Below are positions 26,795 through 39,725 of a DNA stretch of 39,725 bases, one piece after another. The notes below the pieces were generated by a model, which saw nothing but the letters and a program-made list of their open reading frames with translations, was not told where the DNA came from and did no database searches. The stretch lies in the NCBI GenBank assembly GCA_027014115.1, contig JALWEJ010000048.1, positions 1-39,725 of the forward strand, in the 5' to 3' direction. Every line of letters begins with the position of its first letter. The first letter of the stretch is position 1. Source of the stretch: Desulfurellales bacterium. Lineage in GTDB: Bacteria; Campylobacterota_A; Desulfurellia; Desulfurellales; Hippeaceae. The position numbers and the translations under genes were made by a program.

Positions 26795-28689
26795 CAACCA
26801 TTGCCCTTGTAGGTCAGCCAAACTGCGGCAAAAGCACACTCTTTAATCAAATAGCCGGCTACAAAAGCCTCGCTGCAAACTTTCCCGGCGCCACAGTAAC
26901 ATATACAAAAGGAACAACATATATAGACAATGAGCTTGTAGAGGTAGTGGATCTTCCCGGCACATACTCTCTAAGCTGGTATGACGATGCCGAAAAAGAA
27001 ACTGTAAAAGCACTATTCTCAATGGATATTGATGTAATTGTAAATATTATTGATGCCTCTATGCTTATTCGCAGCATAGAATTAACCCTTGAATTGATGG
27101 CATTGGAAAAACCAATGATTGTGGCTTTGAATATGATGGATGAAGCCAAAAAAAAGGGTATTCAGATTGACACAAAAAAGCTTGAAGAGATAATAGGCGT
27201 AAAGATTGTACCCATTATTGCCAAAAAAGGTAAAGGCATAAAAGAGCTTCTTGCAAGTATACAAAACGCTCAAAAACCCAAAAAACGGTGCGTGTATCAG
27301 AAAGAGGCAGAAGAAACCATAAAAAACCTCTCGGGGTGTATAGCCGAGAATGTCAAAGATATAAAATGGCCGTCCAAACTTGTGGCAATCAAAGCGATAG
27401 AAGGCTTCTCGGAATGTGAAGAAGTCGTGGAAAACTCACCATGTAAAGATTTGCTTAATATTGCAAAAGATAAATTAAATAATGGTATGACTATAATAAA
27501 TCAAAGACACGCATTGTGTATGAACATATTCGAACACTCAACAAAACTAACCAAACCTCCAAAAAAAAGCATAGAGTCACGCATTGACGACTTTTTAATG
27601 CATCCGTTTTTGGGGTATGTTTTTATGCTTGCAATATTCGTCGCAATATTTTACGGAGTTTTCACAGGTGGTTCACCTATTGAAAATTTTGTCATATCAA
27701 TCTTTGATACAGTTGACAACTATCTTGCTCAATTGATAACAAACAAACTGGTCTTTGCCATAGCAAAAGGTGCCGCAGACGGGATAGGCGCTGCTATCGG
27801 CATAGCCCTGCCTTACCTGCTTCCGTTTTTATTTATTATATCGCTACTTGAAGATGTGGGATACCTGCCCCGTATTGCATATCTTATGGATTCCACAATG
27901 CACAAAATGGGCATCCACGGAACAAGTGTTATACCGTTTGTTGCCGGTTACGGATGCAGTGTACCTGCTATTATGGCAATCAGAATCCTAAAAAGCAAAA
28001 AAGAAAAGTATATCTCGGCTTTTCTGGCATCGCTTGTACCCTGCTCTGCAAGAACAACTGTAATCATGGGACTTGTGGGTTATTTTTTGGGATGGCAGTA
28101 TGTGATAGCTTTATATGCTTTAAATCTGTTTGTTATAGCAGTTAGCGGCGTTATCTTAAAAAAGATGCTTCCCGGAATAAGCCCTGAAATGATAATAGAT
28201 ATACCCCCATACAGAATGCCCACCGTAAAAACACTGCTTTTAAAGACATGGCACAAGGTCAAAGATTTTGTATATCTTGCAATTCCTATGTTAATAGTCG
28301 GCAGCATTGTACTAACGCTTATCTCTTATTACAACCTAAATCCATACATCAATAATATATTTAAGCCGGTATTGACCGGTTTTTTGGGGCTTCCGTCAGC
28401 TTTGGGTGTTGTTTTAATATTCGGTATATTAAAAAAAGAGCTTACGCTTATCATGCTTTATCAGGCTTTGGGGCTATCAAGCATATCCATGCTGAGCAGC
28501 GTTATGAGCCCTACCCAGATGCTTACATTTACCATATTTGTCATATTCTATATACCCTGCGTTGCAACAATTGCCGCCATAAATAAAGAAATAGGAACAA
28601 AAGGGGGCATGCTCATTACTGTCGGTACAACCGCCCTTGCTCTGATTTTGGCATTTATAACAAAAATTACAGCCCCGCTGTTTATTTAA
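26791..28689 (+). CDS. feoB: Ferrous iron transporter FeoB
   Basis: Inner-membrane Fe(II) transporter with a cytoplasmic G domain. The 632 residues begin with G1 GQPNCGKST, the switch region FPGATVTYTKG, G3 DLPGTYSLS and G4 NMMDEAKK, then a helical GDI-like domain (~165-250). The membrane part has two inverted Gate domains with GYGCSVPAIMAIRIL and LVPCSARTTVIMGLVGYFLG. It is shorter than E. coli FeoB (773) but in the normal range for many bacteria. It is the last gene of the plus-strand cluster and overlaps the convergent AsmA-like gene by 8 bp. Confidence 0.97.
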   Translation: MTTIALVGQPNCGKSTLFNQIAGYKSLAANFPGATVTYTKGTTYIDNELVEVVDLPGTYSLSWYDDAEKETVKALFSMDIDVIVNIIDASMLIRSIELTLELMALEKPMIVALNMMDEAKKKGIQIDTKKLEEIIGVKIVPIIAKKGKGIKELLASIQNAQKPKKRCVYQKEAEETIKNLSGCIAENVKDIKWPSKLVAIKAIEGFSECEEVVENSPCKDLLNIAKDKLNNGMTIINQRHALCMNIFEHSTKLTKPPKKSIESRIDDFLMHPFLGYVFMLAIFVAIFYGVFTGGSPIENFVISIFDTVDNYLAQLITNKLVFAIAKGAADGIGAAIGIALPYLLPFLFIISLLEDVGYLPRIAYLMDSTMHKMGIHGTSVIPFVAGYGCSVPAIMAIRILKSKKEKYISAFLASLVPCSARTTVIMGLVGYFLGWQYVIALYALNLFVIAVSGVILKKMLPGISPEMIIDIPPYRMPTVKTLLLKTWHKVKDFVYLAIPMLIVGSIVLTLISYYNLNPYINNIFKPVLTGFLGLPSALGVVLIFGILKKELTLIMLYQALGLSSISMLSSVMSPTQMLTFTIFVIFYIPCVATIAAINKEIGTKGGMLITVGTTALALILAFITKITAPLFI

Positions 28690-30163
28690 AAATACCTTTA
28701 ATAAGGCCTTTAATCTCTTTTTTTACTTTTTTTTCAATATTCTTTTTTATGGTTTTTTTGATGTCTATACCTATTTTCGGTTTATTCATATCACCCTTGA
28801 TGGTTATTTTCATCGTATTTTTTTTAATAGTTGCAGATACAAGTGCATCCACTTTGTCTGTTTCAAAATTCAGTCTTGCACCTTTTGTGCTTAGATTTGT
28901 CAATCTGCTTGCCATATCAAAATTTAAAACAACCTTTTTATTGTCTATTTTGCTGTTTATTGTAGTTTTTTTGTAAATCTCCTTTGTTAAATCAAATCCT
29001 GCAACAGATTTAACCAAAAGAACCATTCTGTTTGGCAGGATATGCCCATTTAAAAATGTTCCGCTTGCAGCACCTTTTTTTGAAAATATATTGTAGTTAA
29101 ATTCAAGACTACCTTTTGAGGAAAAAAATCTCTTATACATCAGCATATCTGTCAAGCCCACAATATCAATCCCGTTTGCTTTTCCTCTTATCTGCCCGTT
29201 TTTGAATACTGCATCAAGTTTTCCACCCCAAATGTTTGAATGGGCTGTAATTTCTGCGCTGTCTTTTTTGTATTTTATACTGCCGTTTAATACAACACTC
29301 CCTTTTAAATGTCTCTTTGTCAAAAAATACAACTTGTCAAGATTAGGAATATCGAGTACATAATCCGATTTTAAACTCATATTCTTAAGTTTTATCACGG
29401 CATTTTTACACAACAAGGAGCCGTAAATCGATGATACCTTTATTTTTGAATAGGCTTTTTTACCTTTTATATTTGAGTTTAGTTCCAAACCAATCTCACT
29501 GCTTCCCTGAAGTTCAAATCCGAAATCCTTTTTTATCAAAACTTTATTCAAAACGGCTTTCGGCACATTTACAAAAACGATGCCCGAAATGTCATCATCA
29601 TCCGATATATCATCCAAATCCGATTTGATATTAGCTATACCCTCCACATAGGCAGGTCTATTAACCGTTTCAAGCAGCTTGCTTATATGAACATTTACGG
29701 CATTTAAGCTAAAAGATGCAAAAGACATCTTCTTCAAGGTAAATGCGTATTCTGTTTTTGAATTTGCTATATTGCTTTTACCGTCTATGTTTAGTTTTGA
29801 TTTTACATTACCGATAATTTTGCCCTTTACCCAAAAAGGTCCTTTTATTGTCTGTTTTTTTATATGTATAGAGTCGTTTTTCGACAATCTTATATAGTAA
29901 TGTGCGTTAATATTGTTTGAAAATATACCAAACAACCCCTTAATATTAATCTCTGAACCGCTGCGGCTCTTCATAATAACTGCAAAAGATGAAGGTCTTA
30001 GCTTGAATGTATCCAAAGAAAAATCTTCAGAAAGATATTTATGGATTTTTGATTGGACTTTTGGTTTTAATAAATTGTTTCCAAAATCGGTAAATAAAAC
30101 CCCATACATACCCGCAATAACAATGACTACAAATAGAATAAACGCTATAACAAACTTCTTCAT
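28682..30163 (-). CDS. AsmA-like membrane-anchored periplasmic protein
   Basis: A 493-residue protein with one N-terminal membrane helix (KKFVIAFILFVVIVIAGMYG) followed by a long beta-rich periplasmic region. The repeated short strands, a DUF3971/AsmA-like body (LKGSVVLNGSIKYKKDSAEI, NGHILPNRMVLLVKSVAGFD) and the late GDMNKPKIGIDIKK, a typical AsmA C-terminal phrase, support membership of the AsmA/YhdP/TamB-like group that carries lipids to the outer membrane. The last ~25 residues are very lysine-rich. ATG 30163 has GGAGG 7 nt upstream. Exact function is not assigned. Confidence 0.75.
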   Translation of the reverse strand: MKKFVIAFILFVVIVIAGMYGVLFTDFGNNLLKPKVQSKIHKYLSEDFSLDTFKLRPSSFAVIMKSRSGSEINIKGLFGIFSNNINAHYYIRLSKNDSIHIKKQTIKGPFWVKGKIIGNVKSKLNIDGKSNIANSKTEYAFTLKKMSFASFSLNAVNVHISKLLETVNRPAYVEGIANIKSDLDDISDDDDISGIVFVNVPKAVLNKVLIKKDFGFELQGSSEIGLELNSNIKGKKAYSKIKVSSIYGSLLCKNAVIKLKNMSLKSDYVLDIPNLDKLYFLTKRHLKGSVVLNGSIKYKKDSAEITAHSNIWGGKLDAVFKNGQIRGKANGIDIVGLTDMLMYKRFFSSKGSLEFNYNIFSKKGAASGTFLNGHILPNRMVLLVKSVAGFDLTKEIYKKTTINSKIDNKKVVLNFDMASRLTNLSTKGARLNFETDKVDALVSATIKKNTMKITIKGDMNKPKIGIDIKKTIKKNIEKKVKKEIKGLIKGIFK

Positions 30164-30224
30164 TTTCAAACCTCCACAACTTTATATTATCTATTATAAA
30201 CCTTTTTTGTCGTGTATCAAACTA

Positions 30225-35493: not shown

Positions 35494-35567
35494 TTAAGTA
35501 AATCTTTGCAAGAAAGGGAACATTTTATGCTAGGTTCAATTTCAGCATGAAAATAAGGAGGTTTGTC

Positions 35568-38500
35568 ATGTATAGAAAGATTAGCATGTTTATAGTGCTA
35601 TTGGTTTTTCTCTTTGGTCCTTTGGCTTTGGCTAGTGAAACACCTATGTTCTATGTCGGCAGTTGCTGCAAGATGCTTTCACCAGCAGTTGACAACGGAA
35701 CTGTTTTTATTGCACCCCAAGACGGTGCACTTCAAGCCATAAATATATCTAATAACCATAGCATAAACGGGTGGCCTCTTGACAACTACTCTATAACATC
35801 GTCACCTGCCATAGACAACACAAATCAGGTTGTCTATGTAGGCACAAGAGACAAAAAAGTTCTGGCCGTTAATGAAGACGGCACTATTAAATGGACATTC
35901 GAAGCAGACGGGACAGTTGAATCCTCACCGGCGATATCGGCTGATAAAAGTACAATATATGTCGGCTCAGACGATAACAAATTCTACGCCTTGAACGCTT
36001 CAAACGGAAATAAACTGTGGTCATACTCAACAGACGGAGATATCGTAACACCACCTGCCTTGTATACAGACAACAAAACCGCCTATTTCTCATCGAACGA
36101 CGGATATCTCTACGCACTCAACACACAAGACGGCTCTTTGAAATGGAAACTTTACATAGGAGGCAATCCGACAGGTCCTGTCATTGGGCAAAACGGCATG
36201 ATCTATGTGGGTTCACAAAATGGAAACGTATATGCCGTATATCCATATGGCATCACAAAATGGACACACTCAATTGGAGGATGGATAACATCCCAACCTG
36301 TTATCGGATACGGCGGAACACTCTATGTAGGAGCAGACGACTGGACACTTTATGCTCTAAATCCAGATACAGGTAACGAAGAATGGCACTATAAAACAAA
36401 CGGCCAAATCAAATCCTCCCCACTTGCAGCATCAGATGGAAACATCTATGTAGGTTCATACGACGGATATCTGTATGCAATCGACAACTCAACAGGTTTA
36501 GAAAAAAAAAGCTGGGAGCTTGGAGGATTCATATCCTCATCACCGGTCTTATACGACAACAATATATACATTGGAAGCAACTCGGGTTATCTGTATAAAA
36601 TATCTCTGGACAACACCAGCACAGCAACCTTAGCTGATTCTGCATGGCCTATGTTTAAACACGACACGCAGCATACGGGCTATGACAACAGTACACTCAT
36701 ATCTGACAATATAACAATAGATAATTTGACTACAATCGACGGTGTAGTAGATGGAGATGCGCCATTCGTAGTTACTCTAAGATGTACTGCATCCGCCGAT
36801 AACGGTTCAATCAAGAGATTTTTTTGGGATTTCAACGGAGACGGCACTACAGATTCAATAACATATATCCCAACTGAGAATGCGACATACACTGCAAGCG
36901 CAACATACTCATATACTGAAAAAGGCACATACGCTGCAAAGTGTACGGCAATGGACGATAAAGGTCAGACAGGCTCAAAAGAGCTGAATATTACGGTCAA
37001 CCAGGAACAGGACAATATGACAGTCACGCTCAAAGGGCACGGAACGGTTACGAGTAGCCCAGCAAAAATATTGTGCGATACAGGCTCATCCGACAACAAG
37101 ACATGCACCGATAAATTTGATGATGGAACAGATGTATATTTGACCGCTGCACCCTATGCAGGATATCAAATATTCGCATGGTATGGAGACTGCGCAGAAT
37201 GCAACAACGATTCATCACCATACAGCACATGCAAGGTTGCAATGGACGGCGACAAAACATGTACGATTGAATTTAAAACGCAGGCAGAAATAGATAACAA
37301 CACAGCCCCTGTAGCAACAAACATAATCGTCAGCGGAACAGTAAAGGTGGGTAATAAAATAACCCTTACCGGATCAGGTAGTGATACAGACGGCGACTCG
37401 CTAAACTACAAATGGAGCATGGTTTCACAACCTGAGGGAAGTAGCGCTACATTAACCTCGGCAAGCACAAATCCAACACAATTTACACCAGACAAGGAAG
37501 GTGCCTACAAAATTCAGCTCATAGTAAATGACGGAAGAAAGGACAGTGAGGCAATCAGCACAACAATAAATGTAAGCGGTGCAAACAGAGCTCCTGTAGC
37601 AGTAATATCGGTAGACAACAGCTCTATCGTAGTTAAAGACGATAATATGACATTAAGCGGAGCAGAGAGCATGGACCCAGACGGCGATACACTAAGCTAT
37701 GCGTGGAAAATATATAAACCGGATGGAAACCTTGCCTCATTAACATTATCAAGTGACAACAGCACCATAACATTCACACCCGACCAAGTAGGAACATACT
37801 CAGCTGTATTAAAAGTCTCAGATACTTCATCTTTAAGCGATACAGCAACACTTGACTTTAATGTTACATCAGATAACAACAGTGCTCCTACGGCTGTTAT
37901 ATCCCGTGGAGATAGCGCAATAAGCTCCACAACCGCAGCTTTAAACAGTGAAGTCACCCTAAGTGGTGATAAAAGCTCAGATCCCGATCAAGATATCCTG
38001 ACATATAAATGGCAGATTATTGCTCCTGACGGTTCAATATCTTCAACTGCAGAGAGTGCATCCTCCTCCGTTACATTTACACCTACACAGGAAGGGGATT
38101 ATACGGCCATACTGACTGTTAGTGACGGAAAACTCAGCGCAGCTGCAAAAGCCACTATCACTGCGGCAGAATCGCCAACAGCAAAAATTACAACAGACTC
38201 AAACAACGCGGTCGTAGGCACACAATTCAATCTAAACGCATCAGAAAGTACAGGTCCAACAGATGAAGGCTTACTGCAATATAAATGGGAATTCATATCA
38301 AAACCAGCAAAAAGCAGCGCAGAGCTTACAAACAACTCAGGAGATAATGCATCTACATTAAGCAGTAACAATGAGTATGTAAAATTTACTCCTGATGTTG
38401 AAGGTAACTACACAATACAGCTAACAGTAAAAACTGCACACGGTTCTATCTGGGATACAGATAATATAACCATAAGCGCACACAATGCTGCAAGACAAAT

Positions 38501-39074
38501 AACAATAGGCTCAAAAAATATATCGAAAGGTCAGTGTGTGGAGGTTCCGATAAACATAGACAACTCTACAGATGTTTCAGGATTTGAATTCTATGTAACA
38601 TACAATCCCAATGTTTTAGAGTTGAGCTGCAATGACAATGTTACAACAGGTAGCCTGACAGACGGCTGGTATATAGATTCGTACAGCTCAAAAGCCGGAG
38701 AAATACACATAATGACAACCAGTAACTCACTAACACATCTCAATGGCTCAAGCGGCTCTTTGGCTAAAATAAAATTTAAGGCTATAGGTGATATATGGGA
38801 CAATTCGACAGTTGCGGTTGACACAACAAAAATCAATCTAATTACAAATGAAGATGCAAAACCTATAAACTTCAACGTAACGCCCGGGGTTGTCAAAATA
38901 ACCGCATCAGGCGATCTAAATGGTGACGGCACTGTAAATATTTTGGATGTTATGAAGGCACTACAGATAGCACTAGGGATAACAACCGAAGGCAGTGAAA
39001 ATGCCGACATGAACGATGACGGTACGGTCAATATTTTGGATGTAATTTTAATACTCCAAAAAGCACTGTCTTAA
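35568..39074 (+). CDS. Secreted PQQ-propeller / PKD / cohesin / dockerin protein
   Basis: A 1168-residue exported protein. A signal peptide (ISMFIVLLVFLFGPLALAS) is followed by a beta-propeller of PQQ-like repeats (~25-365), each with a phrase such as SSPAISADKSTIYVGSDDN and YALNASNGNKLW. A PKD domain (~380-475, FFWDFNGDGTTDS) comes next, then a cysteine-rich module (~480-570, six cysteines), four PKD/REJ-type domains (~575-970, each with SxDPDGDxLxYxW), a cohesin-like domain (~975-1110, SGFEFYVTYNPNVLEL) and a C-terminal type I dockerin with two calcium-loop repeats (DLNGDGTVNILDVMKALQIA and DMNDDGTVNILDVILILQKA). ATG 35568 has AAGGAGG upstream; an earlier ATG at 35547 does not. Of 24 Asp-Asn pairs, 21 are in DNX(S/T). 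A role in adhesion or surface assembly is inferred. Confidence 0.88.
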   Translation: MYRKISMFIVLLVFLFGPLALASETPMFYVGSCCKMLSPAVDNGTVFIAPQDGALQAINISNNHSINGWPLDNYSITSSPAIDNTNQVVYVGTRDKKVLAVNEDGTIKWTFEADGTVESSPAISADKSTIYVGSDDNKFYALNASNGNKLWSYSTDGDIVTPPALYTDNKTAYFSSNDGYLYALNTQDGSLKWKLYIGGNPTGPVIGQNGMIYVGSQNGNVYAVYPYGITKWTHSIGGWITSQPVIGYGGTLYVGADDWTLYALNPDTGNEEWHYKTNGQIKSSPLAASDGNIYVGSYDGYLYAIDNSTGLEKKSWELGGFISSSPVLYDNNIYIGSNSGYLYKISLDNTSTATLADSAWPMFKHDTQHTGYDNSTLISDNITIDNLTTIDGVVDGDAPFVVTLRCTASADNGSIKRFFWDFNGDGTTDSITYIPTENATYTASATYSYTEKGTYAAKCTAMDDKGQTGSKELNITVNQEQDNMTVTLKGHGTVTSSPAKILCDTGSSDNKTCTDKFDDGTDVYLTAAPYAGYQIFAWYGDCAECNNDSSPYSTCKVAMDGDKTCTIEFKTQAEIDNNTAPVATNIIVSGTVKVGNKITLTGSGSDTDGDSLNYKWSMVSQPEGSSATLTSASTNPTQFTPDKEGAYKIQLIVNDGRKDSEAISTTINVSGANRAPVAVISVDNSSIVVKDDNMTLSGAESMDPDGDTLSYAWKIYKPDGNLASLTLSSDNSTITFTPDQVGTYSAVLKVSDTSSLSDTATLDFNVTSDNNSAPTAVISRGDSAISSTTAALNSEVTLSGDKSSDPDQDILTYKWQIIAPDGSISSTAESASSSVTFTPTQEGDYTAILTVSDGKLSAAAKATITAAESPTAKITTDSNNAVVGTQFNLNASESTGPTDEGLLQYKWEFISKPAKSSAELTNNSGDNASTLSSNNEYVKFTPDVEGNYTIQLTVKTAHGSIWDTDNITISAHNAARQITIGSKNISKGQCVEVPINIDNSTDVSGFEFYVTYNPNVLELSCNDNVTTGSLTDGWYIDSYSSKAGEIHIMTTSNSLTHLNGSSGSLAKIKFKAIGDIWDNSTVAVDTTKINLITNEDAKPINFNVTPGVVKITASGDLNGDGTVNILDVMKALQIALGITTEGSENADMNDDGTVNILDVILILQKALS

Positions 39075-39094
39075 AAACAAGAAAGGGGTAAACA

Positions 39095-39725
39095 ATGAAT
39101 GGCGTATTAAGGCTACTAAGGCTAAAAAAAAGCACAGCATTGATTTTTATCATCATTCCTTTGATGCTTCTACTCGTGCTTGCATTCAATGTCTTTGCAG
39201 CCAATGTGGAAATACCGTCCCAGCAGATTGATGAAAACGCAACAGAGTTTTCAGTGCCTGTAGAGATTGACAATGCATCCTCAGTTAGCGGTTTTCAGGT
39301 TGAAATTGCATACGATGCAAACATACTGAAGATAGATAGCACAACAATTGGAAACGCTGTTTCAAGATGGCTTACATCAACTAGCGACAAAGACGGTGTT
39401 ATAAAACTAATAGGGGCATCAATGGGTGCCCCTCTAACTTCTGAGAGGACAGTATTATTCTATATCAACTTTAAGATTATAGACTATTCATGGTCATCAA
39501 CACCTCTACATTTTAATAAGGTAATACTGTCAGACGACAGCGGAAATGCACTGGACTGCACATACAAAGATACAATAATATATAAAGGACAAAAACCCAA
39601 CACAAAACCAACTGCTGTAATTCAGGCAAATTCAAAAAATGTAAAGGTTGGTGATTCTGTAACACTAAATGGCTCACAAAGCTCAGATGCAGACAACGAT
39701 ACATTAACATACTCTTGGAGTATAC
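39095..39725 (+). CDS. Secreted cohesin / PKD protein (3' end outside window)
   Basis: Starts at ATG 39095 with AAAGGGG upstream and stays open to the window edge; 210 codons are visible. A basic N-terminus leads into an export helix (ALIFIIIPLMLLLVLAFNVF). Residues ~40-165 are a cohesin-like beta domain (VPVEIDNASSVSGFQVEIAY, then DANILKI), related to the cohesin of the preceding gene (VPINIDNSTDVSGFEFYVTY). A PKD-type domain begins near residue 170 (SSDADNDTLTYSW). It lies 20 bp after the previous stop without a terminator, so the two are cotranscribed and probably assemble together. Confidence 0.87.
   Translation, partial: MNGVLRLLRLKKSTALIFIIIPLMLLLVLAFNVFAANVEIPSQQIDENATEFSVPVEIDNASSVSGFQVEIAYDANILKIDSTTIGNAVSRWLTSTSDKDGVIKLIGASMGAPLTSERTVLFYINFKIIDYSWSSTPLHFNKVILSDDSGNALDCTYKDTIIYKGQKPNTKPTAVIQANSKNVKVGDSVTLNGSQSSDADNDTLTYSWSI

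Follow-up and report, generated by a model that had tools for sequence, protein, structure and literature searches.

N-linked protein glycosylation in bacteria is taught from Campylobacter, in which the single-subunit, STT3-type oligosaccharyltransferase (OST) PglB modifies periplasmic acceptors at the sequon D/E-X-N-X-S/T, the acid at −2 being read in Campylobacter lari PglB by Arg331. What sets the acceptor specificity of OSTs is nevertheless described as poorly defined (PMC4894442). The PglB homologs of Desulfovibrio are freed from the −2 rule and are described as relaxed (DgPglB at −2, −1 and +1); they modified RDNAT but not RQNAT, and DvPglB has Tyr at the Arg331 position, but no −1 Asp rule and no evolution of DN-rich acceptors has been reported for them (PMC4894442). 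Trypanosoma brucei TbSTT3A favors acidic sequons, with the largest effect of Asp at −1 and +1, and is modelled to depend on Arg residues near the active site (PMC5724017). Archaeal AglB and eukaryotic STT3 use plain N-X-S/T and carry a Lys (Lys618 in AglB and Lys586 in yeast; PMC7226087) in place of the Ile of the bacterial MXXI motif.

Here we describe proteins of a Hippea-type thermophilic bacterium of the order Desulfurellales that are packed with Asp-Asn-X-Ser/Thr motifs, and an OST gene in the same genome. The window, the whole stretch of DNA that was analysed, is a contig of 39,725 nucleotides (JALWEJ010000048.1, assembly GCA_027014115.1). In the open-access literature searched, we found no paper naming Hippea or Desulfurella together with PglB, and searches for Hippea with N-glycosylation gave only Hippeastrum lectins.

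Results

Predicted acceptor proteins

One exported protein of the window is encoded at 35547-39074 (+) and is 1175 aa long; a version of 1168 aa, on which a sequence-only reading had been based, starts at the second ATG (35568). It has a signal peptide, a PQQ/ACSF4-type beta-propeller region (35799-36536, about residues 85-330; PF13570, PF13360), a Flg_new_2 domain, a PKD repeat region (37338-38456, about residues 598-970; PF22352, PF18911), a cohesin domain (38496-38897; PF00963, E 7e-14) and a C-terminal type I dockerin domain (38910-39053; PF00404, E 5e-9). Of its 89 Asn, 35 are in N-X-S/T sequons, and of its 24 Asp-Asn (DN) pairs, 21 are followed by X-Ser/Thr, confirming the count of the sequence-only reading. 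Shuffles of the same protein give 18.9 sequons, 7.4 DN pairs and 1.6 DN sequons (maximum 7 in 5000 shuffles). The 21 sites are held in the stretch 35694-38810 (+), with the Asn at residues 50, 80, 176, 314, 356, 381, 388, 393, 419, 490, 517, 584, 691, 700, 738, 777, 934, 973, 1006, 1031 and 1086, and lie in propeller, linkers, PKD and cohesin alike.

The signal is exactly at +2: Ser/Thr follows DN in 8/24 cases at +1, 21/24 at +2, 4/24 at +3, 6/24 at +4 and 7/24 at +5, and the +1 residue varies. Asn not preceded by Asp are sequons only at the level expected from composition (14/65), and only 4 of the 35 sequons have D/E at −2. A second exported protein, at 39095-39725 (+) and cut by the contig end, has a signal peptide, a cohesin domain (39242-39547) and the start of a PKD region, and both of its DN pairs are sequons, in addition to a DENAT. 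Its end overlaps another contig (C75) exactly for 127 bp, and the protein as completed there carries a third DN, also a sequon.

The sequence-only reading had found no sequon among 15 DN pairs of five cytoplasmic or membrane proteins. In 736 kb of the same genome, we found that 43 of 470 cytoplasmic DN pairs are sequons (49.6 expected), so the contrast is real, but the background is about 9% rather than zero. Across sampled DNA of three genomes of the family (hereafter f1), 133 of 305 DN pairs in exported proteins are in sequons, as compared to 89 of 807 in cytoplasmic ones (p = 8e-31), and DN is by far the top dipeptide by this measure (p = 2e-39; next 4e-4). The excess is concentrated in a few large surface proteins; exported proteins without these dense ones show a weaker but still significant excess (49/199, p = 3e-6 versus cytoplasm), although in the other exported proteins of genomes G007 and G014 taken singly it is not significant (p = 0.11 and 0.06). 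Gene and signal-peptide calls were made by simple heuristics on samples covering roughly 16-43% of each genome. A general sequon excess in exported proteins was not observed, with 188 N-X-S/T in the other exported proteins against 186 expected. A DNA-level pattern count over the whole genome (GAYAAYNNNWCN, 465 versus 566 for the reversed control) shows no excess because exported proteins are a small part of the genome, and protein-level classes were needed.

In the dense proteins, DN pairs are in sequons in 211 of 257 cases, whereas EN pairs (4/51) are not favored and [DE]-X-N sequons are at background (26/137); among exported proteins, the corresponding values are 133/314 for DN and 58/431 for [DE]-X-N. 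Thr is preferred over Ser (151:60) despite equal composition, and Pro is absent at +1 in the sequons (8 expected) and found once at +3 (8 expected).

The ortholog of the window protein in G014 is 57% identical and has 15 of 20 DN pairs in sequons, but the two share only 6 positions. An unrelated pilus-type protein (DUF6701) in seven relatives has 138/161, while similar-domain proteins of other bacteria have 3/20. An Aeromonas DUF6701 homolog fetched as a control contains no DN pair in its frame and is thus uninformative. One genome matches Hippea maritima by exact length.

Oligosaccharyltransferase and candidate glycan genes

One STT3/PglB homolog is found in 18 of 19 genomes of the order. In the genome of the window (G000), it is a protein of 676 aa encoded outside the window on contig C42 (about 68.1-70.1 kb, minus strand), between a fumarylacetoacetate-hydrolase-like gene and rpsB. 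Profile searches matched it to PF02516 (37 bits, cut-off 24.5) and PF21436 (43.7 bits, cut-off 23), which settled its fold, and the closest solved structures are those of C. lari PglB; however, the NCBIfam PglB equivalog NF050801 was matched at only 93.3 bits against a cut-off of 1300. The WWD motif, which binds the +2 Ser/Thr, is present as WWDYG at residues 440-444 and is invariant in 14 aligned homologs. Family f1 keeps the equivalents of D56, D154, D156 and E319 (D66, D175, D177 and E296), as well as those of R147 and R375. In contrast, the position of Arg331 is Tyr in 14 of 16 f1 sequences, Leu in the genome of the window and Phe in one, and the Ile of MXXI is an invariant Lys537 (with invariant Asp533), as in AglB and yeast STT3. 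The sister family (Desulfurella-like, f2) has a homolog with Arg in place of the catalytic Asp154 and shows no excess (13/92); another preferred residue at −1 or −2 was sought in f2, and none was significant.

PglF-, PglE- and PglC-like genes lie together in G000 on contig C97 and constitute a candidate glycan-lipid gene cluster. In G014, PglF- and PglE-like genes lie directly beside the gene for the orthologous predicted glycoprotein, with a PglC-like gene on the same contig. The OST gene is not linked to these genes, however, and such gene types also serve polysaccharide synthesis.

Discussion

Our study supports the proposal of the sequence-only reading that these exported proteins are under selection for N-glycosylation, possibly with a sequon preference different from that of Campylobacter. 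That reading would have failed in the absence of an export-specific excess or of an OST gene, and neither condition holds. The suggested shift of the acid from −2 to −1 is borne out, with the refinements that the excess is concentrated in a few large surface proteins and that the acid is Asp and not Glu. With high confidence, although as a prediction only (no glycan has been shown and no glycoproteomic or biochemical evidence exists for this organism), we consider the best explanation to be general N-glycosylation at D-N-X-S/T (X not Pro, Thr preferred) by a PglB-like OST that prefers Asp at −1 and transfers a lipid-linked glycan in the periplasm. Large surface scaffold and pilus-type proteins, such as the propeller-PKD-cohesin-dockerin protein of the window, appear to have evolved many such sites and are predicted to be densely glycosylated.

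As compared to the Campylobacter system, the enzyme shares the single-subunit STT3 type, the WWD motif and the metal-site residues, and the genome has PglF/PglE/PglC-like genes, but the acid is at −1, Arg331 and the MXXI Ile are replaced, and the OST gene is outside any pgl cluster. Most Hippea-type enzymes share with DvPglB the Tyr at the Arg331 position. Unlike the Asp-only preference at one position inferred here, that of TbSTT3A is a graded one for acids (Asp and Glu) around the sequon. The loss of Arg331 explains loss of the −2 rule but not by itself a −1 rule; an acid reader for −1 has probably been gained, most likely basic residues in the C-terminal half of loop EL5 (His299 and Lys303/304), though these are inferred from alignment only. 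It is somewhat more likely than not that a lineage of bacterial OSTs has swapped the acid-reading position from −2 to −1, giving a strict four-residue sequon that rejects Glu, that the surface scaffold and pilus proteins of these thermophiles have co-evolved to dense glycosylation at exactly this motif, with positions turning over but the number kept, and that in the Desulfurella-like family the OST lost a catalytic Asp and the motif pressure vanished. A lineage whose proteome alone spells out a different sequon, with an enzyme that has lost the known −2 reader, is a natural experiment on how OSTs read flanking residues, and would also give a thermostable OST with a distinct sequon for glyco-engineering. 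The approach of finding the dipeptide whose X-S/T follow-up is enriched only in exported proteins could reveal sequon rules of other uncharacterised OSTs from sequence alone.

It remains possible, though unlikely, that N-glycosylation by the OST is real but that the enzyme has no intrinsic −1 Asp requirement, Asp being favored for another reason such as solubility or loop conformation of the glycosylated sites, or charge patterning of surface proteins. The dense proteins are indeed acidic, extracellular and repeat-like, and OSTs of other bacteria are often relaxed (PMC4894442). However, with a relaxed enzyme, extra sequons of all kinds should accumulate, and sequons not preceded by Asp show no excess at all, nor is the equally acidic Glu favored.

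Because dockerin and PKD domains bind Ca2+ and are rich in D and N, the motif might instead serve Ca2+ binding, or act as a protease or adhesion recognition motif or a structural turn of these beta-rich domains. We consider this very unlikely, since the motif occurs in unrelated folds (propeller, PKD, cohesin, beta-helix/DUF6701), similar-domain proteins of other bacteria lack it (3/20), positions turn over while the motif stays, and the sister family with an altered OST lacks it; moreover, Pro exclusion at +1 and Thr over Ser are OST hallmarks with no meaning for Ca2+ binding. The least likely alternative is an artefact of composition or of duplication of PKD repeats. Although the composition is biased and there are several PKD repeats, this is already contradicted by the shuffles, which never exceed 7 against the observed 21, and by the enrichment at +2 only, and the pattern recurs in proteins without PKD repeats.

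Results

The ORF at 35547-39074 (+) encodes 1175 aa, of which the 1168-aa form described in the sequence-only reading is a version starting at 35568. It contains 24 Asp-Asn (DN) pairs, 21 of which are followed by X-Ser/Thr, whereas in 5000 shuffles of the same protein the mean number of such DN sequons was 1.6 and the maximum 7; the total number of N-X-S/T sequons was 35, against 18.9 in the shuffles. Ser/Thr after DN was raised only at +2 (21/24; at +1 and +3 to +7 it was found in between 4 and 8 of 24), and Asn residues not preceded by Asp were sequons at the level expected from composition (14/65). In the second protein (39095-39725), which is cut off by the end of the contig, 2/2 DN pairs are sequons. 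The last 127 bases of the window (39599-39725) repeat exactly at the end of another contig of the same genome (C75; locus L196), where the protein continues to its stop with a Pro/Thr-rich tail and one further DN, also a sequon.

The 1175-aa protein has a signal peptide, a PQQ-type propeller, a Flg_new_2 domain, PKD repeats, a cohesin, and a C-terminal dockerin, and the next gene encodes cohesin plus PKD. A third protein of the genome (contig C56, 872 aa), found as a cohesin match, has PKD domains and a JDVT-CTERM-type tail, with 7/10 DN pairs in sequons. The presence of cohesin and dockerin in one secreted protein (38496-39053), with cohesins in two further proteins (39242-39547 of the window, and locus L087), in a small sulfur-reducer-type genome raises the possibility of a self-assembling surface scaffold. 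Several of the DN-rich proteins (L087 220-2835, L138 2670-5276, and L070 958-2643) end in JDVT-CTERM/choice-of-anchor-U type sorting tails, suggesting that sorting and glycosylation share substrates.

To test the excess genome-wide, stretches of the window's genome (736 kb of 1.72 Mb), of a same-genus genome (G014), of a further genome (G007), and of two genomes of the sister family (G001 and G002) were taken, genes were called with a codon-usage ORF caller, and the products were sorted with a simple signal-peptide/TM rule. In the window's genome, exported proteins had 65 DN sequons (16.1 expected from shuffles), cytoplasmic proteins 43 (49.6 expected), and others 8 (12.7 expected). When three genomes of the family to which the window belongs (f1) were pooled, 133/305 DN pairs were sequons in exported proteins and 89/807 in cytoplasmic proteins (Fisher p 8e-31). 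When every dipeptide was tested for being followed by X-S/T, DN ranked first (p 2e-39), and the next dipeptide reached only 4e-4. With the DN sequon-dense proteins left out, the exported proteins still had 49/199 (p 3e-6 against cytoplasm). In the sister family (f2), the count was 13/92, with no excess.

Within the dense proteins, sequons were found at 211/257 DN pairs but only 4/51 EN pairs, and at 26/137 Asn residues in the [DE]-x(not D)-N context. At +2, Thr was found 151 times and Ser 60 times although these proteins hold equal numbers of both, and Pro was found 0 times at +1 in the sequons (8 expected) and once at +3 (8 expected). Because orthologs are included in this set, the counts are not all independent. 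Smaller exported proteins with DN sequons, an S41/Ctp-type protease (3/4 DN) and two type IV pilin-like proteins (2/2 each), were also observed (L041 5652-6923 and L027 5148-6598) and are candidate further glycoproteins.

The G014 ortholog of the 1175-aa protein is 57% identical over its length and has 15/20 DN pairs in sequons (1.5 DN sequons expected), but only 6 positions coincide with the 21 found here; the motif is thus kept while sites move, as for selected glycosylation sites. An unrelated exported protein (DUF6701, with beta-helix and Laminin_G-like domains in G007) showed the same in seven f1 genomes (138/161). In contrast, seven PKD or propeller proteins found by similarity in plasmids of other bacteria had 3/20.

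OST relatives in public genomes are Desulfurellales MAGs. Because G007 is 1,694,430 bp in one contig, exactly the published length of Hippea maritima MH2 (PMC3156395), we infer that f1 is Hippea-like and f2 presumably Desulfurella-like.

The window's genome has one STT3/PglB homolog, as do 18 of 19 genomes of the order (one draft shows two copies). In profile alignment to C. lari PglB, D56, R147, D154, D156, E319, WWD, and R375 are kept, whereas R331 is replaced by Tyr (Leu in this genome), the MXXI Ile by Lys, Y152 by Arg, and T322 by His. His299 (16/16 in f1, Arg in f2) and a basic residue at 303/304 (16/16 in f1) lie in the C-terminal half of EL5, the part that contacts the acceptor peptide in PglB (PMC6215017); by inference, these are our candidates for reading Asp at -1. 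The sister-family OSTs (L051, L055, and L056, the OST genes of G002, G001, and the f2 genome G003, respectively) carry ARLRPD where the metal-binding D-T-D motif is, so that the D154 equivalent is Arg, which fits the missing motif signal in that family; the enzyme may be inactive or repurposed.

The OST gene is not in a pgl cluster, but PglF-, PglE-, and PglC-like genes lie together on another contig of the genome (C97). In G014, PglF- and PglE-like genes lie directly beside the gene for the predicted glycoprotein on the same strand, with a PglC-like gene on the same contig; the glycan gene cluster (L137 4448-10877), which comprises a PglF-like dehydratase, a DegT aminotransferase, HAD, ATP-grasp, a PglC-like sugar transferase, and GT1, is upstream of and on the same strand as the glycoprotein ortholog.

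Discussion

Our study shows that the excess of DN sequons is real. The sequence-only reading had proposed selection for N-glycosylation with the acid at -1, to be abandoned if exported proteins showed no genome-wide excess of the motif or if there was no oligosaccharyltransferase gene, and its interpretation survives both tests. We conclude, with good confidence although as a prediction not yet shown biochemically, that these Hippea-like bacteria have a form of bacterial N-glycosylation that differs from the Campylobacter rule (an acid at -2, read by R331), which was tested here and does not hold. Desulfovibrio OSTs are relaxed; in the study describing them, they modified an internal RDNAT site but not RQNAT (PMC4894442), which in hindsight may hint at a -1 effect. 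TbSTT3A responds most to Asp at -1 and +1 (PMC5724017), but as a graded acid preference. In the literature we searched, which does not include most subscription papers, we found no report of a bacterial OST with an Asp -1 sequon. Elsewhere in the window, a 495-aa exported protein (28682-30169) has no Pfam match.
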